Assembly (NCBI GenBank): GCA_003285105.1
Contig: CP030158.1
Location: 2,022,501-2,086,500, forward strand
DNA length: 64,000 bases
Direction of reading: 5' to 3'
Source: Roseithermus sacchariphilus
GTDB taxonomy: Bacteria > Bacteroidota > Rhodothermia > Rhodothermales > MEBIC09517
Below are positions 1 through 46,382 of the stretch, in pieces. Position numbers and translations under genes: made by a program. The notes beneath the pieces are model-generated. The model did not search any database. It was given only the letters and a program-made list of their open reading frames with translations, and was not told the DNA's origin. Within the stretch, counting starts at the first letter, position 1. Each line of letters starts with the position of its first letter.

Positions 1-464
1 AGCGTGGGCGGTCGGAATCTGTGCTGTCTTATCTGGCCGGAGTACAACGCGAAAGTCGGATGAACTATCCTCGCCTGCTGGAGCGGTGGGGGCGGCATTT
101 TTCGCTCCGCGTGCGGGCCTACGAGGCGGTGCGTGGCGCTATCGAAGCCGACTGCATGCAGGCCATCGGTGCCCCGCTCGATCGGATCGACGTGCGGCGC
201 CGCGTGGTCAACGTGACCCCGTCGGACGGGGCGCATCAGGTCATGCTCTGGGCCAACCGGTTGTTGCCTGCTTTCCTGGCTCGGAGGGTACGCCTGGCTG
301 TTCGTCGTTCGGGGTGGCGCTTCGACGTTCTGCCTCCGATCGATGACGAACCGCTTCGCCGGTACGGCCGGGAGGTGGTACAGACGTGGGATCTGGACGT
401 GATGCGTCGCTATGTGCCGGAGGAAGACCTGAAGGTGTTGCTGGCTACGGAGGAGGGGGTATGA
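1..464 (+). CDS. C-terminal part of a sulfotransferase-like/uncharacterised polysaccharide-locus protein (5' end outside window)
   Basis: The reading frame is open from the window edge to the TGA at 462-464, so this is the 3' end of a longer gene; a GTG at 21 is unlikely to be the true start. The visible ~150 residues contain an RLLERWGRHF segment followed by RVRAYEAV and a long C-terminal helix-rich tail. That layout resembles the C-terminal half of sulfotransferase-like proteins in capsule and exopolysaccharide loci, where the 5' P-loop would lie upstream. The stop overlaps the next ATG by 4 bp (ATGA), indicating translational coupling with a sulfotransferase gene. The family assignment is by pattern only, because the diagnostic N-terminal motif is missing. 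Confidence 0.6.
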   Translation, partial: RGRSESVLSYLAGVQRESRMNYPRLLERWGRHFSLRVRAYEAVRGAIEADCMQAIGAPLDRIDVRRRVVNVTPSDGAHQVMLWANRLLPAFLARRVRLAVRRSGWRFDVLPPIDDEPLRRYGREVVQTWDLDVMRRYVPEEDLKVLLATEEGV

Positions 465-1312
465 CAAGAAGCCTGCGTGATCGTGTCCGGGAAGGCGTCG
501 AGCGGATCCACCTTCGGTTTGCCCTGCGCGATGTGGAGCGCCGGAGCCCGATTCTGGTCTACCAGATGGGGAAGGTCGGATCGAGCACGGTGACGCGAAC
601 CCTGGCGTCGCTGGGCCTGTCCGAGCCGGTGTTGCATCTGCACACGCTCAACCCGGAGACCCTGCGCCGGGCCGTCGAACGACAGCGTGCGTCGGTGCAG
701 CCTCGGCTCCACACGCATTTGCTGGTCTCGGAGCGTCTCATCCCGCGGCTGCCGTTTCCGTGCCGGGTGATCACGCTGGTGCGTGACCCCGTCGCACGAG
801 CGATTTCGTTCGTGTTCGAGGATCGCTGGAAGAAAGTCCCCGAGGCGGTACAGGGCGACGGATCGGTAGACGCCGGCCGGGTCCGGCACAAGGTGCTCGA
901 ACTGCTGGAAGGAGAGAACGGTATTGCAGATCCGACACGCTGGTTCGAGAGCGAACTGCACGAGATGCTGGGCATCGACGTGTTCGCGCGGCCGTTCGAC
1001 CACGAACCGGGATACCAGATCCTGGAGCAGGGTGGTGTCTCGGCCCTGGTGTTGCGGCTGGAGGACCTGAACCGGGTGCTGGCGCCGGCCCTGGCGGCGT
1101 TTCTGGACTTGCCCGAGGAACGCATCCAGGTGGCCCGGGCCAATGTGGGTGAGGGCAAGGCCTACGGTGCATCGCTCCGGGAGGTGAAGGCGACGTTGCA
1201 ATTGCCGGAGGCGCTGCTGGATCGTATCTATGCTACGCGCTATGCCCGGCACTTCTATGCCGAAGAGATCGAGGCCTTTCAGGATCGATGGAGGCGCCGT
1301 GACGAGACCTGA
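461..1312 (+). CDS. Sulfotransferase-like capsular polysaccharide synthesis protein
   Basis: This 283-residue protein has a PAPS-binding type P-loop near residues 30-40 (VYQMGKVGSSTV) and a second motif around residues 105-116 (ITLVRDPVARAISF) matching the 3'-phosphate-binding RDP element of sulfotransferases. The family would transfer sulfate from PAPS to a sugar hydroxyl in the cytoplasm. The ATG at 461 is chosen because it overlaps the upstream stop by 4 bp; the open frame continues back to 386 but only as a shadow of the previous gene. The following GT4 gene overlaps its 3' end by 14 bp. The acceptor sugar cannot be told from sequence. Confidence 0.8.
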   Translation: MTRSLRDRVREGVERIHLRFALRDVERRSPILVYQMGKVGSSTVTRTLASLGLSEPVLHLHTLNPETLRRAVERQRASVQPRLHTHLLVSERLIPRLPFPCRVITLVRDPVARAISFVFEDRWKKVPEAVQGDGSVDAGRVRHKVLELLEGENGIADPTRWFESELHEMLGIDVFARPFDHEPGYQILEQGGVSALVLRLEDLNRVLAPALAAFLDLPEERIQVARANVGEGKAYGASLREVKATLQLPEALLDRIYATRYARHFYAEEIEAFQDRWRRRDET

Positions 1313-2492
1313 TTCGGCAGGGCGGGTGCTGCTGGTACAGCACAGCGCGTCGCGGGACGGCTCCACCTTCAGCGGCTTGCTGCTGGCCGACGGGTTGCGG
1401 GACGCCGGCTGGGCGTTGCGCGTGGTCTTTGGACACTCCGGCCCCATGGAGGCTGTCTATGCCGAGCGCGGACACGCAACGTCCGTGGTGCCGCACAAGA
1501 ACTGGTTGCGCCGGGCGCATCCGGCGAGGTTCATGAACGACGTGATCACCGAATACCGGCGGGCGAGCGCCTTCGACCGGTGCATCGCGCAGGTGCGGCC
1601 GGACGTCGTCTACGTCAACAGCGTCGTGAGCCTGGCGGCCGTGGTGGCCGCGCGGCGGGCCGGGGTGCCGGTCGTCTGGCACCTGCGTGAGCTGTTCGCC
1701 GATGTCGGCGGGGAGATGCACGCGCCGGGGTGGGCGAAGCCGCTCGTGCGTCGGCTCATCGCCCGTCTGCCGGATCGGCTCGTGGCGCCTTCCCGGGCCA
1801 TCGCGGAGAACCTGCTGAGTGCAGCGGCGGACCGAGTGACCATCGTGCCCAATGCCGCGGGACGGCGGTTCTTCGAGGAGGAGCGCACGAGGGATGAGGC
1901 GCGCCGGAACCTTCAGTTGCCGGCCGATGGTCCGATACTGGGCGTACCGGGGACATTGCGCCCCGTGAAAGGGCATATGTTCTTTTTCGACGCGGTGGCG
2001 CCCCTCGTCGACCGGTACCCGGCGCTCACGCTGGCGATCACCGGGCACGGCGCGGCGTCGTACGAGCAGGCACTACAGGCCCGGGTGCAGGAGCTGGGAC
2101 TGGCCGGGCGCACCCGGTTTCTCGGAAGCATCGCCGACATGCCGGCCTTCTACCGGGCCTGCGACGTCGTCTGTGTGCCGTCGCGGGCCGAGCCGTTCGG
2201 GCGAACGGTGATCGAGGCAATGGCGGTGGGCACACCGGTCGTCGCCACGGCCGTCGGTGGCATCCGGGAAATCGTGCGTCCTGAGGAGAACGGGCTGCTG
2301 GTGCCGTACGGCGATCATGCCGCGCTGGCCTCAGCCCTCGACCGCCTGCTCGGGGACGCTGATCTGCGCGCGCGTCTGGTGGAGACCGCCCGGTGGGACG
2401 CACGCGAGTGGTTTCACGAACGGGTATATCAGAATCGTCTCATCAATCTTGTCTATCAAACAGGGTCTAGCGCGGATGGCCATCCTGTGTAA
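1299..2492 (+). CDS. Glycosyltransferase family 4 (GT-B) protein
   Basis: This is a 397-residue GT-B fold transferase. The N-terminal acceptor domain begins VLLVQHSASRDGSTFSG. The C-terminal nucleotide-sugar domain shows LGVPGTLRPVKGHMFFFDAV and the GT4 EX7E region CVPSRAEPFGRTVIEAMAVG. I place the start at GTG 1299, which overlaps the previous stop by 14 bp; the frame extends back to 1230, but those residues are antisense-like and unrelated to GT4. It probably adds one sugar to the lipid-linked repeat unit at the cytoplasmic membrane face. Donor and linkage are unknown. Confidence 0.88.
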   Translation: MTRPDSAGRVLLVQHSASRDGSTFSGLLLADGLRDAGWALRVVFGHSGPMEAVYAERGHATSVVPHKNWLRRAHPARFMNDVITEYRRASAFDRCIAQVRPDVVYVNSVVSLAAVVAARRAGVPVVWHLRELFADVGGEMHAPGWAKPLVRRLIARLPDRLVAPSRAIAENLLSAAADRVTIVPNAAGRRFFEEERTRDEARRNLQLPADGPILGVPGTLRPVKGHMFFFDAVAPLVDRYPALTLAITGHGAASYEQALQARVQELGLAGRTRFLGSIADMPAFYRACDVVCVPSRAEPFGRTVIEAMAVGTPVVATAVGGIREIVRPEENGLLVPYGDHAALASALDRLLGDADLRARLVETARWDAREWFHERVYQNRLINLVYQTGSSADGHPV

Positions 2493-3264
2493 AGAGTTGA
2501 GTCTCCTGTATGTGCAGGTCCCGGCTACCGGGTGTAGCGTCGTAGGACAGGTGCTTAAAAGGCAGTTCGGTGGCGAGGACGTTGGCCGGAAGCACGATGA
2601 CGTGCCACGTATGGTGGCAAGCGGGGTACTGTCTTCGTCTGACGTGGAGCGGCTGCTGGTCGTTGCCAACGTGCGGAACCCGTTCGACCGGCTCGTGACA
2701 TACTATCAGCGTTTAAACGGTGCCTGGATCGACGATTATTTTGCATTTCGTCGTCGAGACCTCGAACGACGGAGACAGCGTGAGGGGTTGAGTGAGGCGG
2801 AGGTCGAACGGGCGCGTCAGCAGATCTTGAGGGAGGAAGAGCGGAAGCGACGTCGCGTGCGTATCATACAGCGCATGGGATTCAACACCTGGGTGGCGGG
2901 TTCTGCGATACGGTGGCGTCTTCGGGATCGCACGTCTGACACGACGCGCCCGCATCCCTATCTGCACCACCTCTTTCCGATGTTGGATCACGTGCAGGTG
3001 GTTCTCAGACAGGAGCAGCTCGAAACGGATTTTAACGCCTTGCTGAACCGTCTGGGTGTTGAGGTGCCGGTATCGATCCCGAGGAAAAACCTCACGCCGG
3101 GGAAAAAGCCTTACACCGCCTATTACAATCCGCTGACGCGACGCCTCATCGAGCATCTATATCGGGACGATCTCGCGCTGATGGGGTATCGATTCGATGG
3201 TTATGAACCGGTCGAGGGGCCGTTGTATCTGACTTCTACGGCATCGAGAGCCGCTCGCTCATGA
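2476..3264 (+). CDS. Sulfotransferase family 2-type protein
   Basis: A 262-residue protein with an N-terminal phosphosulfate-binding segment (LLYVQVPATGCSVVGQVLK) and, about 60 residues later, VVANVRNPFDRLVTYYQRL, the RNPxxRxxSxY-like 3'-phosphate motif typical of the sulfotransfer_2 family (carbohydrate sulfotransferases). The basic central stretch rich in R and E is a likely amphipathic helix. The ATG at 2476 lies inside the 3' end of the GT4 gene (17 bp overlap), and its stop overlaps the next gene by 4 bp. It likely sulfates the exopolysaccharide repeat. A serine/threonine follows the P-loop glycine in most members; here it is CS, so activity is plausible but unproven. Confidence 0.8.
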   Translation: MAILCKELSLLYVQVPATGCSVVGQVLKRQFGGEDVGRKHDDVPRMVASGVLSSSDVERLLVVANVRNPFDRLVTYYQRLNGAWIDDYFAFRRRDLERRRQREGLSEAEVERARQQILREEERKRRRVRIIQRMGFNTWVAGSAIRWRLRDRTSDTTRPHPYLHHLFPMLDHVQVVLRQEQLETDFNALLNRLGVEVPVSIPRKNLTPGKKPYTAYYNPLTRRLIEHLYRDDLALMGYRFDGYEPVEGPLYLTSTASRAARS

Positions 3265-4220
3265 CCGTCTCCATCATCCTCGTCGCCTATCACGCCGACC
3301 GGTGGTTGCCGGGCTGCCTGGCGTCGCTGGCGGGGGCGTCAGAGCGGCGGATGCATCTGGTGCTGGTGGACAACAGCGGCAATACCAACCTGCACGCGCA
3401 GGATCTGTCGCCGTTCGAGGCCGAGGTTCTGACGACCCCGCGTCCGCTGGGCTTTGCCGAGGCCAACAACTTCGCCCTCGTTGAAGCCGGGCATCTGGAA
3501 GAGGTGGTGCTGTTTCTGAACCAGGACACCATCAGTCCACCGGGATGGATCGACCGCTGCCTGGAGGCGCTGGCGGCCGATCCCTCGCTGGGGGCTGTCT
3601 CGCCGGTGATCCGCACGTACGACGACGACGGCTGGGATCCGAGCTTCACGGCCTGCCTGAGCGACGCGCAACGCGGTCGGCTGGACGAGGAGCCGGACGC
3701 GGCCGTGTGGGAGGTGGACGTGGCCCCGGCGCCGGCGCTGCTGGTACGGACGGACGTGCTGCGCGAGGTCGGGCCGTTCGATCCCATCTACGGCAGCTAT
3801 TACGAGGATTACGACCTGTGCCGGCGCATCCGGCGGGCCGGTTACCGGATTGCCTTCGTGCCGTCGGCCCGCGTGCGGCATTTCTCCGGCTCTACGACCG
3901 ACACCCCGGAGAAGGAGCGCCGCCGGATGCGGCTCCTGCTCCGCAACCGGCTCATCTACCGGCTCCGTGAGGATCGGCGACCGCGCTGGCTGGAGCTGGC
4001 CCGGTTCTTTGGCGTCGAGGTTCCACACCGCCTGGTCCGCGGGATGTTGCGCACGCCCTCGTCGCAGCCCCCCGGGGTGGTCCTGCAGGCCGCGGGGGAT
4101 GTTCTGGGAATTGGAAGTCGTATGATGAGCCCGTCCCGAGACCTATGTAACTGGATGCGGTATCTCGAAGAACTGGGTTGGGTGAACGTGTATCATCAGG
4201 AGCCATACCAGCGCCCGTGA
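3261..4220 (+). CDS. Glycosyltransferase family 2 (rhamnosyltransferase-like)
   Basis: 319 residues with a GT-A fold signature: MTVSIILVAYHADRWLPGCL at the N-terminus, the nucleotide-binding VLVDNSG, the DxD-equivalent FLNQDT near residue 85, and the acceptor-side YEDYDLCRRIRRAGYR motif around residue 175. This motif set is typical of WcaA/RfbF-like GT2 enzymes, often rhamnosyltransferases. An ATGA overlap with the upstream sulfotransferase fixes the start. The next gene starts within its stop codon. Confidence 0.88.
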   Translation: MTVSIILVAYHADRWLPGCLASLAGASERRMHLVLVDNSGNTNLHAQDLSPFEAEVLTTPRPLGFAEANNFALVEAGHLEEVVLFLNQDTISPPGWIDRCLEALAADPSLGAVSPVIRTYDDDGWDPSFTACLSDAQRGRLDEEPDAAVWEVDVAPAPALLVRTDVLREVGPFDPIYGSYYEDYDLCRRIRRAGYRIAFVPSARVRHFSGSTTDTPEKERRRMRLLLRNRLIYRLREDRRPRWLELARFFGVEVPHRLVRGMLRTPSSQPPGVVLQAAGDVLGIGSRMMSPSRDLCNWMRYLEELGWVNVYHQEPYQRP

Positions 4221-5395
4221 CCATCCTCCACATCAACGAGCACCTGGCGCGGAAGGGCGGGGTAGAGACGTATCTGTTCGCCCTCATGCCCATGCTGGAG
4301 GCGCGGGGGCACTCCTGCCGGGTGCTCTACGGCGACGGCGACCCGGCCCTGTGGCCGGCGTCGGTGCGGGTGCCGGCCATCCGGCAGGCGGGGGCGGCCC
4401 GGCAGGCGCAGGCGGAGGTGGCGGACGTGCTGCGCCGCGAGCGACCGGACCTCATCCACGTGCACAACGTGCAGAACGAGGGGGTGCTGGCGGCCTGCTT
4501 CGACTACGGCCCCACGGTGCTGACCACGCACGACTACCGCTGGGTCTGCCCGGCGAACACGTTTTTCTACAAGCGCACGCGCGAGACGTGCTTCCGCACG
4601 TGCGGGCCGGGCTGCTTCACGACGACGCTCCGCAAGCATTGCCTGACGCCCCGCCCGCACTATGCGCTGGCATTCTACCGGCGGGCGAAATGGGCCATCC
4701 GGCACGGCGGGCGTCTGGCCCGGGTCATCGCGCCGAGCCACGGGGCGAAGGAGCGCTACGTGCAGGCCGGGTTTCCGCCGGAGCGGATCACGGTGCTGCC
4801 GTACTTCTGCCCGGTGCCGCCGTCCGACGCGCCCCGGCCCGTGCCGGCCCGGCCGACGATCACCTTCCTGGGCCGCATCGCGCCGAACAAGGGGCAGGAG
4901 TACTTCGTCGAGGCGCTGGGGCTGCTGCCGCCGGAGGTGCGCGGCGTGATGGTGGGCAACCTGGGCGAGGGCGGGGAGGAGGCCATGCGGAACCTGGCCG
5001 CGCGGCACGGGTGTGCGGACCGGCTGGAGCTGCGGGGATGGGCCTCGCGCGAGGAGGTGGAGCGGTTGCTCGATGAGACGTCCGTCTTCGTCTTCCCCTC
5101 GCTCTGGCCCGAGACGCTCGGCATCGTGGGGCTGGAGGCGCTGGCCCGCGGCGTGCCGGTGGTGGCCTCCGCCCTCGGCGGTACCGCCGAGTGGTGCCTC
5201 GACGGCGAGACGGGCTACCGCGTGCCGCCTAAAGACGCGGGAGCCATTGCCGATGCCGTACGTACGTTGCTGCACGACGACGGCCGTCTCCACCGGTTCG
5301 GGGAGCGTGGCATTGAGTTGATCCGTCGTCGTTTCCTTCCCACACAGCACATCGAAGCCCTGGCCCGTGTCTACGAAGGCGTCCTCCCTGCATGA
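4217..5395 (+). CDS. Glycosyltransferase family 4 (GT-B) protein
   Basis: 392 residues. It begins TILHINEHLARKGGVETYLF, the glycine-rich acceptor-domain start of GT4 enzymes. The C-terminal half has TFLGRIAPNKGQEYFVEAL and the catalytic-side VFPSLWPETLGIVGLEALARG. I prefer GTG 4217, which overlaps the upstream TGA (GTGA); a TTG at 4178 would add 13 residues. A Cys-rich patch (ETCFRTCGPGC) near residue 125 is unusual for cytoplasmic transferases and may bind metal. Such a patch occurs in some GT4 proteins of polysaccharide loci. Confidence 0.86.
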   Translation: MTILHINEHLARKGGVETYLFALMPMLEARGHSCRVLYGDGDPALWPASVRVPAIRQAGAARQAQAEVADVLRRERPDLIHVHNVQNEGVLAACFDYGPTVLTTHDYRWVCPANTFFYKRTRETCFRTCGPGCFTTTLRKHCLTPRPHYALAFYRRAKWAIRHGGRLARVIAPSHGAKERYVQAGFPPERITVLPYFCPVPPSDAPRPVPARPTITFLGRIAPNKGQEYFVEALGLLPPEVRGVMVGNLGEGGEEAMRNLAARHGCADRLELRGWASREEVERLLDETSVFVFPSLWPETLGIVGLEALARGVPVVASALGGTAEWCLDGETGYRVPPKDAGAIADAVRTLLHDDGRLHRFGERGIELIRRRFLPTQHIEALARVYEGVLPA

Positions 5396-6620
5396 ACCGG
5401 CACCGGTCGAGGGTCCGTCCTCGGTCGGGAGCGGCGCCCTCAAGGTGTGCACGTACGTGTTCTTCCCCGCCGGCGGTATCGGCCGCTATACGCACGAGTG
5501 GCTGCGGACCCTGGGCCGGCACGACGGGGTGGAGGCGACGCTGCTCTGCGCGCCGGACTTTCAGTGGCAACAGGCCGCGGAGTATGTGGCCTGGCCCGGC
5601 CTGCGGGCGCTGTCGCACCCGGTGCCGCTGCGGCGGCGTCTGCGCTTTCTGCGGGGCCAGTTCGCCAACCCGCTCCGTGCCATCGAGCAGGCCGAGCGCG
5701 TCGATGCGGATATTCTCCACTTCGCCAGCGTTAACCATCTGACCTTCCCCCTCTGGGCGCCGGCGCTGAAGCGGCTCCGTGCGCGCGTGACCATCGCCGT
5801 CCACGACGTGCGGCGGCAGAAGGCCATCGTCCATCGAGTCTGGGAAGACCGGCAGTTGCAGGCCGTCTACCGGGCGGCGGATGCCCTGTTCGTGCATTCC
5901 GCGTATCAGGCGCACGAACTGCGCGACTTCGCCGGCGTGGACCCCGCCCGGATCCACGTGGTCCCGCACGGCCCGTATCCCTACAGCCGCCCCACGGCCG
6001 ACCGGGCGACCCTCCGCCGGCGGTACAGTCTGCCGACCGACGGGCAGGTCGCGCTGTTCTTCGGGCAGGTGCGGGATGAGAAGAACCTGGACGGCTTCAT
6101 CCGGGCGCTGGGGCGGCTCGACGCGCCGCTGTACGGCCTGGTGGCCGGGCATGCCCACGACCGCCACCGGGGCATGGCCGCCTACGAGGCCCTGGCCGCC
6201 GATGTCGGGGTTGACGATCGGCTCGTGTTTCTGGATCGCTTCATCCCGGACGAGGAGGTGGGGGATCTGTTTTCCCTGGCCGACTGGGTGGCGCTGCCGT
6301 ATCGGACGGCGTTCACGTCGCAGAGCGGCGTGCTGAACGTGGCGGCGCACTACGACCGCCCGGTGCTGGTCAGCGATGCGCCCGTGTTGCGGGAGACGGT
6401 GGAGGTGTGCGACATCGGGGTGGCCGCGGAGGGAGATACGCCGGAGGCGCTGGTGCATGGGATCGAACGGATCATGGAGCGCGTGAACGGCGGACACACA
6501 TTTGCCTTCGAGGCGTACCGGCAGCAGTTCAGCTGGGAAGAAAATGCCCGCCGCACGCTGGCCGTCTACCGGGCGCTGCTGGAGGCTCCGTCCCTCGCGG
6601 TGCGTTCCGCAACGGGATGA
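5367..6620 (+). CDS. Glycosyltransferase family 4 (GT-B) protein
   Basis: 417 residues from GTG 5367. The conserved part starts around residue 27 (KVCTYVFFPAGGIGRYTHEW), so an internal GTG at 5445 is also possible. The donor domain contains ALFFGQVRDEKNLDGFIRAL and LVFLDRFIPDEEVGDLFSLA, followed by a GVLNVAAHYDRPVLVSD segment in place of the usual EAMAxGxPV. The start overlaps the previous gene by 29 bp, as elsewhere in this compact operon. It is a likely cytoplasmic sugar transferase; donor unknown. Confidence 0.84.
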   Translation: MSTKASSLHEPAPVEGPSSVGSGALKVCTYVFFPAGGIGRYTHEWLRTLGRHDGVEATLLCAPDFQWQQAAEYVAWPGLRALSHPVPLRRRLRFLRGQFANPLRAIEQAERVDADILHFASVNHLTFPLWAPALKRLRARVTIAVHDVRRQKAIVHRVWEDRQLQAVYRAADALFVHSAYQAHELRDFAGVDPARIHVVPHGPYPYSRPTADRATLRRRYSLPTDGQVALFFGQVRDEKNLDGFIRALGRLDAPLYGLVAGHAHDRHRGMAAYEALAADVGVDDRLVFLDRFIPDEEVGDLFSLADWVALPYRTAFTSQSGVLNVAAHYDRPVLVSDAPVLRETVEVCDIGVAAEGDTPEALVHGIERIMERVNGGHTFAFEAYRQQFSWEENARRTLAVYRALLEAPSLAVRSATG

Positions 6621-6830
6621 GGGCGGCCCGGTAGCCGGCGGTCGGGATCGGCCGAGACGCACAGGATGCACGAGATATGCGCACGAAACCAACGGGTGGG
6701 GCTGTGGGAAGGATGATAGAGGGCCGGCATCTGGACCGTTTCTTGCTGGACGTCATCCTCTCCTTGCGGTGGGATTCCGCCGCTGCGACCGTCACGGACC
6801 TCCGGGGCCGGACGGGTTTGTTCGGTCGTC

Positions 6831-8039
6831 ATGCCTTCGTTCCCTCTTCCCATGCATAGCGCGCCAGAGCCGATGACTCAGACGGTTGCACAGGACACCC
6901 CGGAGCGGGCCGGCATGCCGCCGGACGCCCTGGAGGCAGCGGTGAGGGCCACAGGCCGGCCTGAAGGCGGACCGCGGCGCATCGCCATCCTGTATTCCCG
7001 TCTGTCCGGTTACACCGCGGCCTGCCTGAGGGCCCTCAAACAACGGTATGGCGTGCAGTTGCTCGTCGTGCGGGTGCCGCCGGCCCGTGAGGCCCCCTTC
7101 GCCACGCGTCACTTCGACTGGATCGACGCGCTGCACGACCGGAACCGGTACTCGACGGAGGCGCTCTGGGAGCTGGTGGCCGGCTTCGCACCGGACGTTG
7201 TCTTCATGTCGGGCTGGCTGGACTCGGGGTATCTGCGCGTGGCACGGCGCCTTCGCCGGCAGGGCGTGCGGGTCATTGCCGGGTCGGACACGCAGTGGAC
7301 CGGCTCGCTGCGGCAGCAGGTCGGACGCCTGATTGCGCCGTGGCACCTGCACTCGGCCATCGACGTGCTGTGGGTGGCCGGCGAGCGACAGCGGCAACTG
7401 GCCTACCGGCTCGGCTTTCGCGGCCCGCGGTGCTGGTCCGGCTACTATGCGTGCGACTGGGACCGGTTTGCGGCCGTCCACCGGCAGGCAGGCCCGAACC
7501 GGCCCCGGGCCTTTCTCTACGTGGGCCGCTACGTGCCGGTCAAGGGGCTCGACGTGCTCGTGGAGGCCTACCGGCGATACCGGGAGCAGGTGGATGATCC
7601 CTGGCCCTTGATCTGTGTGGGGGCCGGGGAGCAGGAGGTCTTGCTCCGGGGGGTGGAGGGGATCGAGAACCGCGGCTTCGTACAGCCCGACGATCTGCCC
7701 GGCCAGATGGCCGAGGCCGCAGCGTTCATCCTGCCCAGCCGCCGCGAGCCGTGGGGCGTGGTGGTGCAGGAAGCCGCCGCCGCCGGATTGCCGCTGATCT
7801 GCTCGGACGTGTGCGGGGCGGCCGTGCATCTGCTGCAGGATGGCTTCAACGGGTATCTGTTCGAGTCCGGCGATGCCGCTCACCTGGCGGATTGCATGGT
7901 GCGCCTGGCCGAAGCATCACCGGCGGTCCGGGAAGCCATGAGCGCGCGAAGCCATCAGTTGTCCGCGCAATACACTCCGCAGCGCTGGGCCGATACGCTG
8001 GTCCACGGCGTGCGGGCCTGGAGCCGGCAGCCCGCATGA
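6831..8039 (+). CDS. Glycosyltransferase family 4-type protein
   Basis: 402 residues. After a ~45-residue polar leader, the acceptor domain starts RRIAILYSRLSGYTAACLRAL. The donor domain has RAFLYVGRYVPVKGLDVLVEAY and FILPSRREPWGVVVQEAAAAG, the EPxGxxxxEA form of the GT4 EX7E motif. The ATG at 6831 follows a 210-bp gap, the longest break in this part of the operon, so an internal promoter may lie there, although no clear consensus was seen. It overlaps the next gene by ATGA. Confidence 0.84.
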   Translation: MPSFPLPMHSAPEPMTQTVAQDTPERAGMPPDALEAAVRATGRPEGGPRRIAILYSRLSGYTAACLRALKQRYGVQLLVVRVPPAREAPFATRHFDWIDALHDRNRYSTEALWELVAGFAPDVVFMSGWLDSGYLRVARRLRRQGVRVIAGSDTQWTGSLRQQVGRLIAPWHLHSAIDVLWVAGERQRQLAYRLGFRGPRCWSGYYACDWDRFAAVHRQAGPNRPRAFLYVGRYVPVKGLDVLVEAYRRYREQVDDPWPLICVGAGEQEVLLRGVEGIENRGFVQPDDLPGQMAEAAAFILPSRREPWGVVVQEAAAAGLPLICSDVCGAAVHLLQDGFNGYLFESGDAAHLADCMVRLAEASPAVREAMSARSHQLSAQYTPQRWADTLVHGVRAWSRQPA

Positions 8040-9463
8040 ACGTGCCCTACGGACCCCCAGCGGCCTATCCACCGGCGGCGCCGATGACCTCGGATCCGTT
8101 CGAGCCGGTCGTCCAGCCCCGGGTGCTGGTGCGCCTGCTGTTCTACGCGTGGGGGCTCGTGGCAGCGGCGGCCGTCATCCCGTTTCTGGGAGAAGCGATC
8201 CTGGTAGGGGCGGCCATCTACGCGCTGACGGGGCCGCGCCAGGCCGGGGAGGCGCTCCTGCTGCTGGCGCTGGCCATCATCATCCACAAAGGGCTCGTCC
8301 CGGTCGACATTTCCTTGCTGCGATGGGTCGTGCTGGCGGCTGCGGCCGGGCGGGTGGTCTGGGACGGGGTGATCAATGGCATGCCGGCTCCCCCGGTCTT
8401 CTGGTTGTTGACGGTGCTGGTGATCAGCATGCTCCTGGGGGCCTTTCTGGTGAGCTGGCTCCCCACGGTCTCTCTGTTCAAGGCCATCTCGTTCTACCTG
8501 GGAGCGGGCACCGCCATTGTGGCGTTCTACCGGACGCGACACGAGGCGGTGTACTGGCAATCGCTCCTGCTCACCCTGGCCGTCTTCGTCCTGGTCGGGA
8601 GCCTGCCGATGCTGGCCCTGCCGCAGTACGGCTTTTCCCGCAACGGCGTGAGCTTTCAAGGCCTGCTGACGCATCCGCAGACCTTCGGGCCGCTGGGGGC
8701 GGTGCTCACCGCCTACGTCACGAGCCTGGTGGTGTTCGAGCGACAGCGGGGAGGGTGGCTCGTGGGCGCGATGCTGGCCGGGTGGGTCGGCGTGTACCTG
8801 TCGCAGTCGCGTACGGGGATGCTGGCGCTGGTGCTGGGGGGCGCTGTGGCGGTGGGCCTCGGCCTGTTCAAGCCGGCCACGTGGGGTCTGCAGATCCGCC
8901 GGGCGCTGAGCGGACCCGCGCTGGCGCTGGGGCTGCTGGCCTTCGGGGCGCTGGCCGTCGTCTACGGCCCGGACCTGTCGGAGGGAGTGGTGGCCTTTCT
9001 GCTCAAAGACGAGGGAGCCGAAGACGTGGCCGGCGCCCTGCAGGAATCGCGCAGTGGCCTGATCGAACGGTCGATGGATAACTTCTATGACTCCCCCCTG
9101 CTGGGGATCGGGCTGGGCGTGCCGTCCGATCCGGCCGGGGCGCGCATCGAGTTCGGCCCGCTGGGGCTGCCCATTGGAGCCACCGTAGAGAAAGGGTTTA
9201 CGCCGTCGGCCGTCCTGGAGGAGACAGGGGTACTGGGTGCCGCGTTGCTGGTGCTGGTGCTGGCGGGGCTGCTGCTGCCCGTGTGGCGGTACGGTCCGCT
9301 CGGGCTCTTCTGGATGGGGATGACGGTCGTGCTCATCAACCTCGGGGAGGCCATCATCTTCGCCATCGGCGGCAACGGCTTGTTCGTGTGGATCATGTGG
9401 AGCCTTGCCTACAGCATCTCGCTCGAAAGGCGTTCATCGCAACAGACATGGGGAGGACCGTAA
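8036..9463 (+). CDS. O-antigen ligase/polymerase-family membrane protein (Wzy/WaaL-type)
   Basis: 475 residues with about ten hydrophobic segments, for example VRLLFYAWGLVAAAAVIPFL and the later LVGAMLAGWVGVYL. A WVGVYLSQSRTGMLALVLGG segment matches the conserved SxSRTG region of the Wzy_C/O-antigen ligase family, and a large extracytoplasmic loop follows. The family polymerises or ligates undecaprenyl-linked polysaccharide on the periplasmic side. The ATG at 8036 overlaps the previous stop by 4 bp; the frame is open further upstream (to 7751), but only as a shadow. In this operon it is the best candidate for the repeat-unit polymerase. Confidence 0.83.
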   Translation: MNVPYGPPAAYPPAAPMTSDPFEPVVQPRVLVRLLFYAWGLVAAAAVIPFLGEAILVGAAIYALTGPRQAGEALLLLALAIIIHKGLVPVDISLLRWVVLAAAAGRVVWDGVINGMPAPPVFWLLTVLVISMLLGAFLVSWLPTVSLFKAISFYLGAGTAIVAFYRTRHEAVYWQSLLLTLAVFVLVGSLPMLALPQYGFSRNGVSFQGLLTHPQTFGPLGAVLTAYVTSLVVFERQRGGWLVGAMLAGWVGVYLSQSRTGMLALVLGGAVAVGLGLFKPATWGLQIRRALSGPALALGLLAFGALAVVYGPDLSEGVVAFLLKDEGAEDVAGALQESRSGLIERSMDNFYDSPLLGIGLGVPSDPAGARIEFGPLGLPIGATVEKGFTPSAVLEETGVLGAALLVLVLAGLLLPVWRYGPLGLFWMGMTVVLINLGEAIIFAIGGNGLFVWIMWSLAYSISLERRSSQQTWGGP

Positions 9464-9467
9464 GGAG

Positions 9468-10661
9468 ATGCACGTGCTGATCAACGCGGCCTCGGCGAAC
9501 ATGGGCGGGGCGCTGACCTACCTGATCAACGTGGTGCGGCAGTTGCCGGCCCGCGCGCCGGACGACTACGTTACGGTCGTGCTGCCGGCCGCCTCGCGCC
9601 CGAAGGTGGAGGCATTCGGCCCGTTCCCCAACGTGACGCTGGTCGATTACCCGTATGCCGACACCGGCGGGCCGGCACGGAATTACTTCGATCAGGTGGA
9701 GATCCCACGGATGGTGCGCCGCCGGCAGGCGGACGTGCTGTTCTCCTCCACCGGCTTCGGGACGTTCCGGAGCCCGTGCCCGCAGGTGCTCCTCGTGCGT
9801 AATCGGGTCTATTTCAGCAAGGACTTTCACCGGAAATACCGCGAACTGGGCCGGAGCCTGCGGCGGAACACGATCCGGCGCTGGCTGAGTCTGGCCTCGA
9901 TCCGCGCGGCTGACGTGACGCTCTTTCCCACGCGGGCGATGCAGGAGATGGTAGGGGAATGGATCGACCTGCGCGGCCGGCGGACGGAGGTGATCCACTA
10001 CGGGTTCGACCACGAGGCCTTCGCGGCGCGGCGGGCCGAAGACGCACGGTTCGAGCGTATCGACCGCTGGCGGGCCGACGGCTATGCCATCCTGCTCAAC
10101 GTGTCGACGTACGCGGTGCACAAGAGCTTCGAGGTGCTGGTGGAGGCATTGCCGCATCTGAAGGCGGCCGGGCACCGGGTGAAGCTGGTGACGACGACCT
10201 CGCGGGAGAAGACGGCGGATAAGGCGGAGTACGACGCGCTGGTGCGGCGGGCCGACGACCTGGGGGTGCGGGAGGACTGGCTGGAATTGGGCTATGTGCC
10301 GTACGAAGCGCTCGGCAGCCTCTACGCACGGGCGGACGTGTACGTGTTTCCGTCGTTCACGGAGTCGTTCGGGCATTCGCTCGTGGAGGCGATGGCGTCC
10401 GGTCTGCCGGTGGTGGCGTCGGACATGCCGGTGAACGTGGAGGTGTGCGAGGGGGCGGGGGTGTACTTCCCGGTGTTTGACGCCGCGGGCTGTGCTGCCC
10501 GGGTCGGGGAGGTGCTGACGGCGCCGGAGCGGCGGGAGCGGATGCAGGAGGCGGCGCGGGCCCGGGCGCAAGCGTTCTCGTGGCAGCAGTATGTGGACAC
10601 GTTGATGACGTGCTTTCGTGAACTGGTGGCGTCCGAACGAGACGAAATACCAGTAGGATGA
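9468..10661 (+). CDS. Glycosyltransferase family 4, first copy of a tandem pair
   Basis: 397 residues. Starts MHVLINAASANMGGALTYL, a Gly-rich GT4 acceptor loop; the donor domain has AILLNVSTYAVHKSFEVLVE and VFPSFTESFGHSLVEAMASG with an intact EX7E-type motif. An AGGAG sits immediately before the ATG at 9468; the open frame extends to 9405. By eye the protein differs from the next gene at only about sixteen positions before the C-terminal tail, so the two arose by recent tandem duplication. It ends in ATGA overlap with its copy. Confidence 0.9.
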   Translation: MHVLINAASANMGGALTYLINVVRQLPARAPDDYVTVVLPAASRPKVEAFGPFPNVTLVDYPYADTGGPARNYFDQVEIPRMVRRRQADVLFSSTGFGTFRSPCPQVLLVRNRVYFSKDFHRKYRELGRSLRRNTIRRWLSLASIRAADVTLFPTRAMQEMVGEWIDLRGRRTEVIHYGFDHEAFAARRAEDARFERIDRWRADGYAILLNVSTYAVHKSFEVLVEALPHLKAAGHRVKLVTTTSREKTADKAEYDALVRRADDLGVREDWLELGYVPYEALGSLYARADVYVFPSFTESFGHSLVEAMASGLPVVASDMPVNVEVCEGAGVYFPVFDAAGCAARVGEVLTAPERRERMQEAARARAQAFSWQQYVDTLMTCFRELVASERDEIPVG

Positions 10662-11854
10662 GGATGCTGATCAACGCGGCCTCGGCGAACATGGGCGGGG
10701 CGCTGACCTACCTGATCAACGTGGTGCGGCAGTTGCCGGCCCGCGTGCCGGACGACCACGTTACGGTCGTGTTGCCGGCTGCCTCGCGCCCGAAGGTGGA
10801 GGCATTCGGCCCGTTCCCCAACGTGACGCTGGTCGATTACCCGTATGCCGACACCGGCGGGCCGGCACGGAATTACTTCGATCAGGTGGAGATCCCACGG
10901 ATGGTGCGCCGCCGGCAGGCGGACGTGCTGTTCTCCTCCACCGGCTTCGGGACGTTCCGGAGCCCGTGCCCGCAGGTGCTCCTCGTGCGCAATCCGGTCT
11001 ATTTCAGCAAGGACTTTCACCGGAAATACCGAGAACTGGGCCGGAGCCTGCGGCGGAACACGATCCGTCGCTGGCTGAGCCTGGCCTCGATCCGCGCGGC
11101 CGACGTGACGCTCTTTCCCACGAAGGCGATGCAGGAGATGGTGGAGGAATGGATCGACCTGCGCGGCCGACGGACGGAGGTGATCCACTACGGGTTCGAC
11201 CACGAGGCCTTCGCGGCGCGGCGGGCCGAAGACGCACGGTTCGAGCGTATCGACCGCTGGCGGGCCGACGGCTATGCCATCCTGCTCAACGTGTCGACGT
11301 ACGCGGTGCACAAGAGCTTCGAGGTGCTGGTGGAGGCCCTGCCGCATCTGAAGGCGGCCGGGCACCGGGTGAAGCTGGTGACGACGACCTCGCGGGAGAA
11401 GACGGCGGACAAGGCGGAGTACGACGCGCTGGTGCGGCGGGCCGACGACCTGGGGGTGCGGGAGGACTGGTGCGAGCCGGGCTATGTGCCGTACGAAGCG
11501 CTCCGCAGCCTCTACGCGCGGGCGGACGTGTACGTGTTTCCGTCGTTCACGGAGTCGTTCGGGCATTCGCTCGTGGAGGCGATGGCGTCCGGTCTGCCGG
11601 TGGTCGCGTCGGACATGCCGGTGAACGTGGAGGTGTGCGAGGCGGCGGGGGTGTACTTCCCGGTGTTCGATGCCGCCGCCTGTGCCGCCCGGGTCGGGGA
11701 GGTGCTGACGGCGCCGGCACGGCGGGAGCGGATGCAGGCGGCGGCGCGGGCCCGGGCGCAGGCGTTTTCGTGGCAGCAGTACGTGGATGCGTTGATGGCG
11801 TGCTTTCGTGAACTGGTGGTGCCCGAACGGCAACCGCAGGAGGTGGCGGCATGA
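10658..11854 (+). CDS. Glycosyltransferase family 4, second copy of a tandem pair
   Basis: 398 residues, nearly identical to the preceding gene; differences include NRV to NPV, MVGE to MVEE and DWLELGY to DWCEPGY. Several changes replace E, T or G by A near the C-terminus, and the last ~12 residues are unrelated. Both copies keep the donor-site SFTESFGHSLVEAM segment, so neither is visibly broken. Two alternative ATGs exist (10658 and 10664); 10658 gives the ATGA overlap. Either dosage or a slightly changed acceptor specificity may keep both copies. Confidence 0.9.
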   Translation: MRMLINAASANMGGALTYLINVVRQLPARVPDDHVTVVLPAASRPKVEAFGPFPNVTLVDYPYADTGGPARNYFDQVEIPRMVRRRQADVLFSSTGFGTFRSPCPQVLLVRNPVYFSKDFHRKYRELGRSLRRNTIRRWLSLASIRAADVTLFPTKAMQEMVEEWIDLRGRRTEVIHYGFDHEAFAARRAEDARFERIDRWRADGYAILLNVSTYAVHKSFEVLVEALPHLKAAGHRVKLVTTTSREKTADKAEYDALVRRADDLGVREDWCEPGYVPYEALRSLYARADVYVFPSFTESFGHSLVEAMASGLPVVASDMPVNVEVCEAAGVYFPVFDAAACAARVGEVLTAPARRERMQAAARARAQAFSWQQYVDALMACFRELVVPERQPQEVAA

Positions 11855-12762
11855 ACACGACCGAGCCGATGACACAAACGATGCAGACTGCGCGGCGCGG
11901 AACCGTGCCGGTGTCCGTGCTGATCGCCGTCCGCAACGAGGCGCAGAACCTGCCGCGCTGCCTGGCCGCCCTCGACGGCTGGGCGGACGAGGTGGTGGTG
12001 GTCGACTCGCAGAGCACCGACGGGACGGTCGAGATCGCCGAGGCGCACGGCGCCACCGTCCTGCAGTTCCACTACAAGGGCGGCTGGCCGAAGAAGCGGC
12101 AATGGGCGCTGGACACGTTCGACTTCCGCAACGACTGGATCCTGCTGCTCGATGCCGACGAGATCCTGCTCGACCCCATCAAGGCCGAGATCGCCGAGGC
12201 CATCCGCCGCGACGATCACGACGGCTACTGGCTCCGTTTTCAGCTCCACTTCCTCGGCCGGCAGCTTCGCCACGGTGGGTTCGATCTCTGGAAGCTGTTC
12301 CTCTTTCGGAAGGGAAAGGGGCGCTATGAGCGCCGCATCGACGGCGAGCAGACGCCCAGCATGGCCGACATCGAGGTGCACGAGCACGTGGTGGTTGACG
12401 GCCGGGTGGGAAAGCTCAAAAACCCGATCCGACACGAAAACTGGAACTCGCTTTACCGGTACATCGAGAAGCACAACGAGTACTCCGAGTGGGAGGCACG
12501 GGTGTACTTCGAGGGGCACAAGGGTGAGGTGCCGCCCCGTTTCTTCGGCACCCAGGCCGAGCGCCGCCGCTGGCTCAAGGCCCGCCTGGTGCGCCTCCCC
12601 GGCTTCCCCATACTGACCTTCCTCTACCACTACGTCCTCCGCCTGGGCTTCCTCGACGGCCGCCCCGGCCTGATCTACTGCACCCTCAAAGGCGTCCAGC
12701 GCTTCCACGCCAAGGCGAAGTGGTATGAGCTGGAGATGAAGCATGAGGCGCGTGATCTCTGA
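11851..12762 (+). CDS. Glycosyltransferase family 2 (WaaE/KdtX-like)
   Basis: 303 residues. The GT-A core shows VSVLIAVRNEAQNLPRCLAA, VVVDSQSTDGT and the metal-binding LLLDADE near residue 107, then GGFDLWKLFLFRKGKGRYE. This order is typical of the WaaE/KdtX-like beta-glucosyltransferase group. The C-terminal tail (LTFLYHYVLRLGFLDGRPGL) is the membrane-associating segment found in this group. ATGA overlap with the upstream GT4 gene; a 26-bp gap separates the next gene. Confidence 0.87.
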   Translation: MNTTEPMTQTMQTARRGTVPVSVLIAVRNEAQNLPRCLAALDGWADEVVVVDSQSTDGTVEIAEAHGATVLQFHYKGGWPKKRQWALDTFDFRNDWILLLDADEILLDPIKAEIAEAIRRDDHDGYWLRFQLHFLGRQLRHGGFDLWKLFLFRKGKGRYERRIDGEQTPSMADIEVHEHVVVDGRVGKLKNPIRHENWNSLYRYIEKHNEYSEWEARVYFEGHKGEVPPRFFGTQAERRRWLKARLVRLPGFPILTFLYHYVLRLGFLDGRPGLIYCTLKGVQRFHAKAKWYELEMKHEARDL

Positions 12763-12788
12763 CAGCCAGACTCTACCTGAAAGATCCC

Positions 12789-13442
12789 ATGAATCTTCGA
12801 GCTTACCCGAGACTGCGAAACGTCGTCCTCAAAGGGACTACCGTGTACTGGCGACTGCGAGAGCGCTATTTCCAGAACTACCTGTTCATTCATATCCCCA
12901 AAACCGGCGGGCGGAGCATCGAGACGGCTCTGGGGTGTCTTTATGAGCACAAAACGGCTTTGCAGAAGCGAAACGAAGTGGGATTCGATGTCTGGAATGC
13001 AAAGTTTACGTTTGCCTTCGTGCGCAATCCCTGGGATAAAGCCGTATCCCACTATGCCTATTTGAAAAAGACGGGTCAGGATTTCCTCGAAGAGGACCAT
13101 ATTGACTTTCGTTCGTGGGTGCGACTAGTTTTTGTCGATCGGAACTCCCGATACATATCCAGGCCCCTGCATTTTGCGCCTCAGACGGAATGGATTCTGG
13201 ATCTGGATGGGAAACAACTGGTTGACTATGTGGGTCGTTTCGAACGGTTCGAGGCAGACTTCGCCGAGGTGTGCCGGCGTATCGGTGTTAACCGGCAACT
13301 TCCCCATCAGAACAGCTCGCACCGGCGCAAAGACTACCGGACGTATTACGATGACGAGACGGCTCAGATCATAGCTGATGCATATGCCTCGGACCTGAGC
13401 TATTTTGGTTACTCCTTCGATGCAAATGGCGTTTTGGCATGA
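12789..13442 (+). CDS. Sulfotransferase family 2 protein
   Basis: 217 residues with a textbook 5'-phosphosulfate-binding loop, FIHIPKTGGRSIETAL (about residues 35-50), and the 3'-phosphate motif FAFVRNPWDKAVSHYAYL (about residues 76-93). A final YYDDETAQIIADAYASDLSYFGY segment is the usual C-terminus of bacterial carbohydrate sulfotransferases (sulfotransfer_2). It probably transfers sulfate from PAPS to the polysaccharide repeat. It overlaps the following GT2 gene by ATGA. Confidence 0.9.
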   Translation: MNLRAYPRLRNVVLKGTTVYWRLRERYFQNYLFIHIPKTGGRSIETALGCLYEHKTALQKRNEVGFDVWNAKFTFAFVRNPWDKAVSHYAYLKKTGQDFLEEDHIDFRSWVRLVFVDRNSRYISRPLHFAPQTEWILDLDGKQLVDYVGRFERFEADFAEVCRRIGVNRQLPHQNSSHRRKDYRTYYDDETAQIIADAYASDLSYFGYSFDANGVLA

Positions 13443-14428
13443 AACGACCGGGCCCTGGAAACTGGAGAACCTGGCAGTATGAAGATTACCTTCGCTACTT
13501 TCTGAGTATTGAAGGTGTCAGGCAGCGCATGAAGGGGCGAGGGTTCCCCCTCGATACATTGACAGACGATGAACTGTGGCAATTCTGCGCACCTATCCGG
13601 TCGCGGATCGAAGAAAAATACGGTCAGAGTGAATCCCCGCGCGTTTCGATTGCGCTGGTTGCGTACAACGAAGAGCGTGAACTCATTCCGACACTTCTCT
13701 CCTACACGCTGCTCGATTGTCCGCCGGGACTGGCAGAGCTTATCGTGGTAGATAACAACTCCACCGATCGCACGCGAGATGTTATTCAGGCCTGTGGGGC
13801 CCGATATGTGCTGTGTAAAGAGCAAGGGACACCCTTTGCTCGGGCAGCCGGGCTGGCGGCCTCACATCCTGATGCCGAATATATCTGGATGTCGGACGGA
13901 GATGTTCGCGTGGTGCCGCCCATCAAAAGAGAAGAGGATCTGCTGAGGCCTGGAACGGTGTTTCAAACGGCCTATCACTTTTTAGAAGCCCATCCGCGTA
14001 CGGTGGGGGTGTCTACCGGAACGGTGTTCGATGCAACGCACTGGTCTCATGCTTTGTTGAGAATAATAGCGCGTGCTATCGGAAAGACGTCAAAGTACAG
14101 TTGCTGGTCTGGTACCAATCAGTTTATTCGCAAGTCAGCACTACTTGCGAGTGGAGGAATTGATACGACTGTGCTTTTTGGCGAGGATCATCACAGGCAT
14201 TATCAGTTGGCGAGGTGGGCGAAGGCAAATGGCTTACACTTGAATTCAGCGAATATGAATAAAGAAAAGTTAGGTGACCCTGTGTATCACAGTGGTCGCC
14301 GCCATGCCACGTTAAAGCATGTGATATTGCATTTGTGGGATACGCTCCGAAGAGGGAGGTATTATGATAAAGATGAGCATGGATGGCCTTTACATAAGCA
14401 AAATATTACCTGGAGAGAAGTTCGATAG
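13439..14428 (+). CDS. Glycosyltransferase family 2 protein
   Basis: 329 residues. An ~65-residue N-terminal extension precedes the GT-A core VSIALVAYNEERELIPTLL, then LIVVDNNSTDRTRD and YIWMSDGDVRVV, the DxD site. The C-terminal SCWSGTNQFIRKSALLASGG is an acceptor-side GT2 element. From roughly position 14000 the base composition becomes markedly AT-rich, unlike the GC-rich upstream genes, so the 3' end lies at the edge of an AT-rich segment that continues into the next gene. Confidence 0.87.
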   Translation: MKRPGPGNWRTWQYEDYLRYFLSIEGVRQRMKGRGFPLDTLTDDELWQFCAPIRSRIEEKYGQSESPRVSIALVAYNEERELIPTLLSYTLLDCPPGLAELIVVDNNSTDRTRDVIQACGARYVLCKEQGTPFARAAGLAASHPDAEYIWMSDGDVRVVPPIKREEDLLRPGTVFQTAYHFLEAHPRTVGVSTGTVFDATHWSHALLRIIARAIGKTSKYSCWSGTNQFIRKSALLASGGIDTTVLFGEDHHRHYQLARWAKANGLHLNSANMNKEKLGDPVYHSGRRHATLKHVILHLWDTLRRGRYYDKDEHGWPLHKQNITWREVR

Positions 14429-14436
14429 ATTAGATA

Positions 14437-15262
14437 ATGTTTGGGGAAAATATGATTGCGAAAAATAAAGTGATTTTCAGTTCTGGTATAATGGAACTTG
14501 TTTTTAGAATAGGAAAATTTTGTCCTATCAAAAAAAGAAATTTTCAAGTGTGCTGTGTTGGTGCACCACGTAGTGGCACGAAAAGTCTGGCTGCTATTTT
14601 TGCAAGGATGTGCAGAGCAGCGCACGAACCTCTTGCTCGGCCTACTTTGAAGTTGGTAACTGACTTCGAAGAGGGTAGATATGATCGAAAGACTATAGAA
14701 AAAATCCTTATAGGAAGGGATAGATTTCTGTCTTTAGAGATGGAGTCTTCTCATTACTTATACCCTCTCGCTCCTGTGTTGCTTGATCTATTTGAAAAAT
14801 CCAAATTCATTTTGATTACAAGAAATCCTGTGAAATGGTTGAGGTCAATGATAAACAAGAGTGTTTCTACAAAAAGAGATGATTGGTGGAGTGAGTGGTA
14901 TCATAGAAAATTTCATAGTGATGCATTCCATATAAAAAATGGTATTGATGGATTGCGCCCCTATTTAGAATATTGGGTTAGTCATAATCAGTTTGTTTTG
15001 GAAAATATACCTAGAAATAAATTACTTGTGTTGGACTTAGAGAGTGTCCGTAAGGGCAATTTAGCTGTCGTGTGGGATTTTGTTTGGATTAAAAAAAATT
15101 TCTTTAGAAAAAGCAGATATTCATGAAAATAGGCGAAAATACGTATTAGATATTCTTGATTTTTATCCCGAAAATGAAGTGAGAAGATTGGTTGATGAGG
15201 TGTGTGGCGAAATGATGTTGAGACTGAGTAGAGAAATCAGCATGCTTCATGAAAAGAGATAG
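14437..15262 (+). pseudogene. Sulfotransferase-like gene with a +1 frameshift, in an AT-rich segment
   Basis: The first frame (14437-15126) encodes QVCCVGAPRSGTKSLAAIFA, a PAPS-binding loop, and FILITRNPVKWLRSMINKS, the 3'-phosphate motif. Near 15079-15090 the frame breaks: it reads WDFVWIKKNFF and stops at 15126, while the overlapping frame continues GLKKISLEKADIHENRRKY to a TAG at 15262. Removing one T from the GTTTGG run at 15082-15087 would restore WDFVGLKKISLEK. This is a real frameshift or a sequencing error. Codon use is strongly A/T-rich compared with all neighbours, suggesting a foreign origin. An alternative start is the ATG at 14452. Confidence 0.75.
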
Positions 15263-15264
15263 GC

Positions 15265-15471
15265 ATGCTACAGATCCTCCAAAACATAAAATCCGGCGAG
15301 ACGCGGCTGGAGACGGTGCCGCCGCCGGACTGGGCCGGCGGGGTGCGGGTGCGCACGGCCGCTTCGCTCATCAGCGTCGGGACGGAGAAGATGCTCATCG
15401 ACCTGGCGCAGAAAAGACTGGTCGGCAAGGCCTATGCGCGACCGGACCTCGTGCGGCAGGTAAAGGGCTAA
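15265..15471 (+). pseudogene. Truncated N-terminus of a bi-domain oxidoreductase
   Basis: The 68 codons begin MLQILQNIKSGETRLETVPP and continue through RTAASLISVGTEKMLIDLAQ. They align with the first 67 residues of the complete 727-residue oxidoreductase at 46383-48566, then end abruptly in KG-stop where the full protein continues LQKVQKE. No zinc-alcohol dehydrogenase core or Rossmann domain remains. It starts 3 bp after the preceding gene, as in an intact operon, so it is a remnant of a paralogous gene whose 3' part was deleted or replaced. Function of the fragment is unlikely. Confidence 0.85.
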
Positions 15472-15801: not shown

Positions 15802-18800
15802 ATGACAATGCGGAACGTGAACATGCAGCAGGTGGTCGTGAAGGCGATACTTGGAGCAGTGGTGTGGATAGTGGTGGCGGTGCTGCCCGGTGGGGTCGTT
15901 GCACAAACCCGTTTACTGGATGCGGATCGGGATGCCGTTTATGCGGCCTACAGTCTCCGCAGGCTCAGCAGCACCTATGACGGGCCGACCCTGCGGGTGA
16001 GACGGTCCCGTGACAATGCGGAGCAGGACATTGGCTTCGGTTCCGCCGGATTCATCGACACGGTGGCCCTCACGGCCTTCGTGGGAGCAGGCGACGGCTA
16101 TGTGGTCGTCTGGTATGACCAGGGGCCGAACGGTTATCATGTGCGTCAGAGCAATCCGGATGCGCAGCCGATCCTCGTGCAGAACGGCGCCGTCCTGCGT
16201 GCAGAGACGGGCGATCCAGCCCTGCGGTTTGAGGATGCAGCCACCAACCCGGCCGGCGTCAACCGGTACCTGTCCGTCGTTGACGTGACGCGTCCCCTGT
16301 CCAGCACCGATTACATGCTCGCCGCGCTCGTGGAGCAGGTCGGTTACAACGGCGAGCCGACCATCGTTTCCGTCTCCCCTCGTGGGAGGGCACACGAGGG
16401 TATTGCCTATCGTGCCGTGCATTCCTACATCAACGGAAATGATGCCAAGGCAAGAATAGGAGGAACTTCATTCAACAGTGAGGCCTTTCTGCCCGTTATC
16501 CTCCGTAACCGGGGAGATAGAGCCGAGTTCTGGCAGGGGAATACGCTTCTGTGGACCGGGGCGGAGGCTGAGGAGGAAGAGCTTGCGTCTTCGCGAAACA
16601 ATCTTGACGACATCGAAATCGGAGGGGATAATTTCACCGGACATATCAGCGAGGTGGTGATCTATGGCGCCTACGAGGCAATTCACCCGCTGGATTATTA
16701 CCGGGACATGGCAGCGGCCTTCATTGCGGGAGTGCCCCTGTGGAACGAAGACGCCATCCTGCCGCAGACCTATCCCTACCAGGTCGTCCTGTACGACTGG
16801 TTGGAGTCGCTCACGGTGGGGGATGTGACGCTGGAGATGGGGCAGACGTTCACGTTTGATCCGTCCCTTCTGACCGACGACGAACTGGCGGACCTGCATC
16901 ATTATGCCGAGGTCATTTCCACCAGCCGGGTGGTGCGTGGCGAGCCGGAGTGGTATGTGCTCGATGCCGGCAATGGGAAAGGGATCGAGGCGACGGGAGA
17001 GGTGCGCGTGTGGCACGAGCCCGGAAGCGGGTATGGAGGCAACCCGCCCCGGTCATGGGCCAATGAGCCGGCCCAACTGTACCAGCTGGATATTCCCCTG
17101 CCCGGAGGAGGACAGGGAAACCCTTATTACAAGGATCCCGCGATGGGGCGCCGCGCCATGGTGGTGGCCATCGTAGATATGATGATGTATCACCAGGATC
17201 TGCTTGCCGGGGGGACGGCCACCTGGGGCGACATGTACGGCAAGGCCTTTCTGGGATGGGCCGAGGCGTATCGCTGGGCCGGTGAGGTGCTGCCCGCGGA
17301 TGTTCAGGAGGCCTTCGAGGAAGGCATGACGTACTTCCTGGATTTTGCCGTGACCTCCGATGATGCGTCTCCACGGGCCGTCAACACGAACATGGATATG
17401 TTCTTCATCCACGGCTGTGCGGAGTTTTACATGGCGACCCGCCATCCGGAGCGTCAGGCGAAAGCCCTCGCAGCGGTCAAAGACTGGCTATTCGGGTATC
17501 CCGATGGCGAACTGGAGGTCAAGCACAAAGTTTTTGCACTCGACGGTACGTTGCCTCGGGGGGGAGTGTTCAGCCCCTCCGGGTTCATCATGGAAGGCGA
17601 CCAGCCGGATATTTTTTACGGCGGCGAGTCGCTGTACCACCTCGCCGGCGCCGTGGCGGCCGTCATGGATCGCGAGACAGGGGCTGTTCCGCCGGAATGG
17701 GACTTCATGAAGGAAGTCGTACGGCGCTTCCAGGAGTGGCGACTGTATCAGTACTGGTACGAACCCGGTGTTGCAGCACCGGGTATGGGAGGCATACGTG
17801 CAGCCCGCTGGTATCATGGGGGAGCCGGATTTACGGGGCGTACCGGGGCCGGGGTGCCTTCCGGGCAGGCGAGCGGGGACAAGTACAAGGTCATTGGAGA
17901 TCTCTATCCGGAGTTGATCTACGACGGGTTGTATTCGAGGGAACATCGGCCGGCGCTCAAGTCCCGTTCGCAGATGGTCTCCGACATTTCGAAAGATCTG
18001 GCGAGCCGGACGAGCGAGATGGCCGCGGTATACGAGGGGATGCCGAACACCTGGAAGGGGTGGTCGCCCTGGACGAAGGAGACGGGCTATCTGCCGGCTC
18101 GGGGGTGGTACTCGCGGTTCAAAGCGCTGGAAAACGATCCCTCGACGTATCCGCCGTCGGGGCGGCCCGGCTATTACTACAGCAAGCCGTTCGGTGGTCC
18201 TCCCGTGGGGTACGAGTACTGGGCCTACAAAAACACCGACGGGCAGCGTGAATGGGGCTTTTTCATGGAAGCGCAGGCCCGACAGGGGGGCTACGGCGGA
18301 TGGTATGGCGGGAAGATCGAAACGTTCTGGACGGAAACGACCGGCGTCGTCCTCATCAACCGGCACGGGAAAGGTGGCTGCGATGGCGACAAAGAGGATG
18401 CCGGATGCTGGGACAACATCGATTATAAAGCAGGTCATCACGTCTGGGGGCGTGACGAGCAGGGGCATGCTTTCAGTACACTCCGCTTACGTGGGCAGGG
18501 GCTTTCGCGGACCTCTACGTTCGATCTCGACGCCGCCAATCCATCCGTCGAAGTGGTCAACGTGTTCAACGATCCGTACCACGCCGACAATTCTACCTCG
18601 TCCAGGACGGGCGAAGAGACCGGCTATGAACTGGAAGGGGCGGTCCGCATTGCCAACAAGGTCGAGGCGCTGACCAACGGGGCCCGCGTAACGCACACGG
18701 TGACGTCGGACGGCACGGACGAGGTCACCGAACTCTGGGCCTCGATCCCGGTGCATCTGCGCATGTATGGCGAGACCCCGGGCGACAAGCCTCAGGCTGA

Positions 18801-27914: not shown

Positions 27915-27926
27915 ATAATCTAGCTA

Positions 27927-46268: not shown

Positions 46269-46382
46269 TCTTTCCTGTCTGCTCGCCGACGGCGGTCGCT
46301 ACGAAAACCCGCGGTGTCCCGTCGCGACGTCTGCGGCAGCCTGCCCTTCGCCCTACCACCCTCGACCTTCAACCCTTCCACC

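Follow-up and report, generated by a model that had tools for sequence, protein, structure and literature searches.

A tandem pair of GT4 glycosyltransferase genes in Roseithermus sacchariphilus, probably duplicated in place within a polysaccharide cluster

Two adjacent and nearly identical genes of Roseithermus sacchariphilus, each encoding a predicted glycosyltransferase of family GT4, are probably the product of an in-situ duplication of one gene, which gave rise to two maintained, near-equivalent transferases. The pair lies in a window of 64,000 nucleotides, the whole stretch of DNA that was analysed. In the explanation that we prefer, an operon for a surface polysaccharide (probably a sulfated one) had a single GT4 gene, and this gene would have been duplicated in place, from start to stop, after the allele of the window's lineage had split from that of its nearest relative. 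Both copies have been retained through purifying selection; they would be expressed from one operon by coupled translation via ATGA overlaps, and their reactions would most likely be identical or nearly so. The simplest interpretation is that the second copy provides redundancy or a raised dosage. The pair is an ordinary evolutionary event; it bears on how polysaccharide clusters acquire transferases and leaves the general view unchanged. It represents a small and clean example, in which a gene-length tandem duplication and a single-copy outgroup together allow both the scar and the polarity of the changes to be read.

The gene pair and its surroundings

The features of the window that concern the pair are the following.

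9468..10661, + strand: copy A, GT4 glycosyltransferase, 397 aa
10658..11854, + strand: copy B, GT4 glycosyltransferase, 398 aa
10639..10664, + strand: putative duplication junction, with residues 392-397 of copy A (its derived tail), the ATGA overlap and the derived first codons of copy B
7751..9463, + strand: upstream neighbour, membrane protein resembling Wzy_C/O-antigen ligase (weak match of 31.3 bits, cut-off 31.7; true start uncertain)
11851..12762, + strand: downstream neighbour, GT2 glycosyltransferase, its start overlapping the stop of copy B
386..15126, + strand: polysaccharide cluster holding the pair, with GT4, GT2 and sulfotransferase genes; syntenic in the related genome G010

The copies stand head to tail in the same orientation, and one ATGA is common to the stop of copy A and the start of copy B; the stop of copy B and the start of the next gene (11851) likewise overlap by ATGA. 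An in-frame GTG at 9474, 3' of an AAGGAG (9462-9467), may be an alternative start of copy A. BLASTN self-comparison gave a single repeat in the pair region (9475-10639 against 10665-11829, 96.2% identity over 1165 nt, spacing 1190), in agreement with the two adjacent, near-identical GT4 genes described in the initial annotation, and the best match in the genome beyond the pair drops to 64.5 bits.

About sixteen substitutions had been estimated by eye before the last dozen residues, and the count is exactly 16, at residues 2, 3, 30, 34, 113, 156, 163, 272, 274, 283, 329, 341, 354, 361, 378 and 381. The last dozen residues had been called unrelated, which is true of the clear break from residue 392 onwards and not of V387, E390, R391 and V396, which are identical in both copies. 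The view that only the C-terminal tails have diverged goes too far, given that differences are scattered along the whole gene and that the first codons are also unlike (MHV in A, MRM in B).

The neighbouring genes suggest that the cluster makes a sulfated surface polysaccharide. All 12 of the other cluster genes compared have a counterpart in G010, so the extra GT4 gene is not substituting for a lost transferase.

Three further stretches were noticed at or beyond the 3' edge of the cluster. A 0.2 kb fragment (15264-15461) shares 77% identity with the 5' portion (46382-46582) of a gene at 46314-48566 that encodes a dehydrogenase/GFO_IDH_MocA fusion; G010 carries a similar fragment at the same cluster edge, and a trace of recombination there is possible. 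A 1 kb stretch (27922-28929), possibly a mobile element, is 94% identical to a distant site of G010 (C1:4081801-4082808), the other matches of this query outside the cluster edge being at 66-78%. The gene at 15802-19647, 3' of the cluster, encodes a 1281-aa protein with a weak, partial Pfam match to ArabFuran-catal (25.5 bits, cut-off 25) and no match in NCBIfam.

Single-copy relatives and the duplication scar

With copy B as the query and the own genome counted, matches were obtained in 2 of 60 relatives (E 1e-40), in 3 of 114 genomes of the order (E 1e-45), and in at least 2 of 394 genomes of the phylum (E 1e-60, from the best 4 candidates of each listed genome). Plasmids searched at E 1e-40 gave no match. 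A scan of genome contigs returned no relative with copy B alone and three loci (L015, L016 and L017) with an alignment as query. L015 (uncultured Bacteroidetes MAG CAJXLV010000010.1) has match values equal to those of genome G090; L016 (42%), whose gene begins at base 107 of the available stretch, was used in the structure alignment, and L017, a partial 35% match only, was left out. Among the papers listed by a literature search, mostly plant work, none was recognisably on this pair.

The initial annotation had proposed looking for the same pair in related genomes; G010 and G090 were each found to hold a single copy. G010 carries the whole polysaccharide cluster with its gene order unchanged, and has one GT4 gene rather than two, between the same neighbours, although its upstream wzy-like gene is only 60% identical. 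Its GT4 protein is 88-89% identical to the copies (87.6% and 88.0% for the two at the nucleotide level), with a head like that of A and a tail like that of B. The GT4 protein of G090 and L015 is more distant (54% aa) and lacks the C-terminal tail; it is encoded by one copy, and the order wzy-like, GT4, GT2 is that of the window (in L015: GT2, GT, GT, GT, wzy-like, GT4, GT2).

Over codons 1-388, copies A and B agree with each other against G010 at 114 sites, whereas A agrees with G010 at 19 and B with G010 at 24 (all three differ at 4), which makes the copies sisters. They are thus adjacent, co-oriented, and sisters to the exclusion of the positionally equivalent single-copy orthologue, as an in-situ tandem duplication entails. 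Given single copies in G010 and in G090/L015 with a shared gene order, the duplication is restricted to the window's lineage among the genomes searched, and the tandem duplication first proposed is borne out by these relatives.

The ends of the genes point in opposite directions. At the tail, G010 (KPQEVVA) agrees with copy B (QPQEVAA) and not with copy A (DEIPVG); at the head, G010 (MHV) agrees with copy A and not with copy B, the polarity of residue 2 being less sure because the head of G090 is MRI. Copy A would therefore combine the ancestral 5' start with a derived 3' tail, and copy B a derived 5' start with the ancestral 3' tail. From these comparisons, the unlike tails are best read as the scar of the duplication, with both novel ends meeting at the junction, as a tandem duplication of gene length would leave them. 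The short ribosome-binding motif AGGAG is present at both outer ends (9463-9467 and 11838-11842) and might have served as microhomology. In the model of copy B the tail is predicted to be disordered from residue 389 on (mean pLDDT 39 for the block 391-398), so that the tail difference is probably of little consequence.

Selection on the copies and alternative explanations

Four methods applied to codons 1-388 placed dN between A and B at 0.018-0.024 and dS at 0.093-0.21. When the aligned codons were analysed by NG86, the copies were separated from each other by a dS of 0.096, about one quarter of their dS to the G010 orthologue (0.40 for A, 0.36 for B); the duplication, which had been termed recent, is so in this relative sense only. 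Lineage changes number 25 in A and 20 in B, with 4 unresolved (codons 1-391), every polarised change resting on G010 as sole outgroup, as there is only one close relative among the genomes compared.

Over codons 4-388 there are 43 nucleotide differences, about 26 of them synonymous. The 17.2 non-synonymous and 25.8 synonymous differences between A and B fall below a neutral non-synonymous share of about 0.70-0.74 (p = 2e-6 to 4e-5), and the same holds along each lineage, with 11 N and 13 S for A (p = 0.010) and 7 N and 9 S for B (p = 0.022), in tests built on 24 and 16 changes, respectively. The N/S between the copies is equal to that between A and G010 (Fisher p = 0.72). This deficit, with an N/S as between genomes, indicates that both copies have been kept as working enzymes, and by these counts both are under purifying selection, with no detectable relaxation or acceleration.

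Gene conversion between the copies was also considered. Among the variable sites in codons 4-388, the differences between A and B are clustered by the sum of squared run lengths (p = 0.0105) and not by the longest run (0.13), with 0.0037 and 0.09 for codons 1-388; split by codon position, the two p values were 0.37 and 0.57 at position three and 0.24 and 0.82 at positions one and two, which does not support conversion.

A possible, though rather unlikely, alternative is that two alleles diverged in separate strains and were joined by import and unequal recombination into a merodiploid, so that most differences would be older than the duplication. The cluster is a mosaic in comparison with G010 (C1:1010000-1040000), with dS from 0.08 to 1.2 and fourfold differences from 0.055 to 0.56, which leaves room for the import of one copy. 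The fourfold difference is 0.055 for the gene Sulf 386 (95.5% aa) and 0.094 for GT 4178, against 0.48-0.56 for GT 5367, GT 6831 and the wzy-like gene, in a central block (5367-9463) of about 60% aa identity; rpoB, with 84.2% aa over 1091 residues, stands at 0.38, and the two genomes belong to different families. These values suggest that pieces of the cluster have been exchanged between lineages, and the edge of the similar block coincides with the start of copy A (9468). Transformation-driven tandem duplication through unequal crossing-over is described for the pneumococcus (PMC3784515). Against an import, however, the two copies lie at the same distance from G010, and their derived changes form no mosaic of A-like and B-like stretches (runs p = 0.86). 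A single in-situ event also takes fewer steps.

It is improbable that the copies have different roles, for example that one of them attaches another, similar sugar in the building of the repeat unit, as an early neo- or subfunctionalisation. Such a division would fit the persistence of both copies under selection, and some changes do fall in the donor half (L274P in B, C272L in A), the C-terminal half being the donor-binding half in GT-B enzymes. In B the polarised residue changes lean towards the N-terminal half, in A towards the C-terminal one; the nucleotides, however, show no such partition (core Fisher p 0.50-0.75), and the residue changes per domain are few. Nor is the clustering in acceptor and C-terminal surfaces seen by the initial annotation supported: the 14 core residue differences (residues 4-386) are divided 5 to 9 between the N- and C-terminal halves, and show no domain clustering (binomial p = 0.59). 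Its remark that the donor motif is spared was correct, E299-x7-E307 being unchanged. A neofunctionalised pair would be marked by faster or unequal amino-acid change in one of its members; none was found (25 against 20 changes, N/S unchanged), and there is no evidence for the early neofunctionalisation that the initial annotation had suggested.

We give very little credence to a combined version, a captured merodiploid of two diverged cluster alleles in which one linkage was split into two, with the acceptor side altered in B and the donor side in A. An assembly artefact is hardly conceivable, since false copies would be identical or bear frame-breaking errors, whereas these differ at 49 of 1173 sites (codons 1-391), mostly silent in the core, with both frames open, in a genome assembled as one 4.81 Mb contig (99.98% complete).

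Comparison with characterised GT4 enzymes

Copies A and B both exceed the Pfam curated cut-offs for PF00534, PF13692 and PF13439. Residues E299 and E307 of the E-x7-E donor motif are identical in A, B, G010 and G090. The predicted structure of copy B (pLDDT 83.4, pTM 0.84) matches the folds of solved MshA, BshA and PimA, with 3c4q_A found by Foldseek at TMq 0.73 and E 1.8e-17. With the family domains, the motif and the GT-B fold in agreement, both copies are intact predicted retaining GT-B glycosyltransferases of family GT4. No equivalog of NCBIfam attains its cut-off (the best scores 82.9 bits where 259.85 is required), so that this comparison assigns neither a donor nor an acceptor. In this lack of an equivalog-level match the copies differ from the characterised GT4 enzymes; with MshA (3c4q), BshA (5d01) and PimA (2gej) they have in common the GT4 domains, the GT-B fold and the E-x7-E motif.
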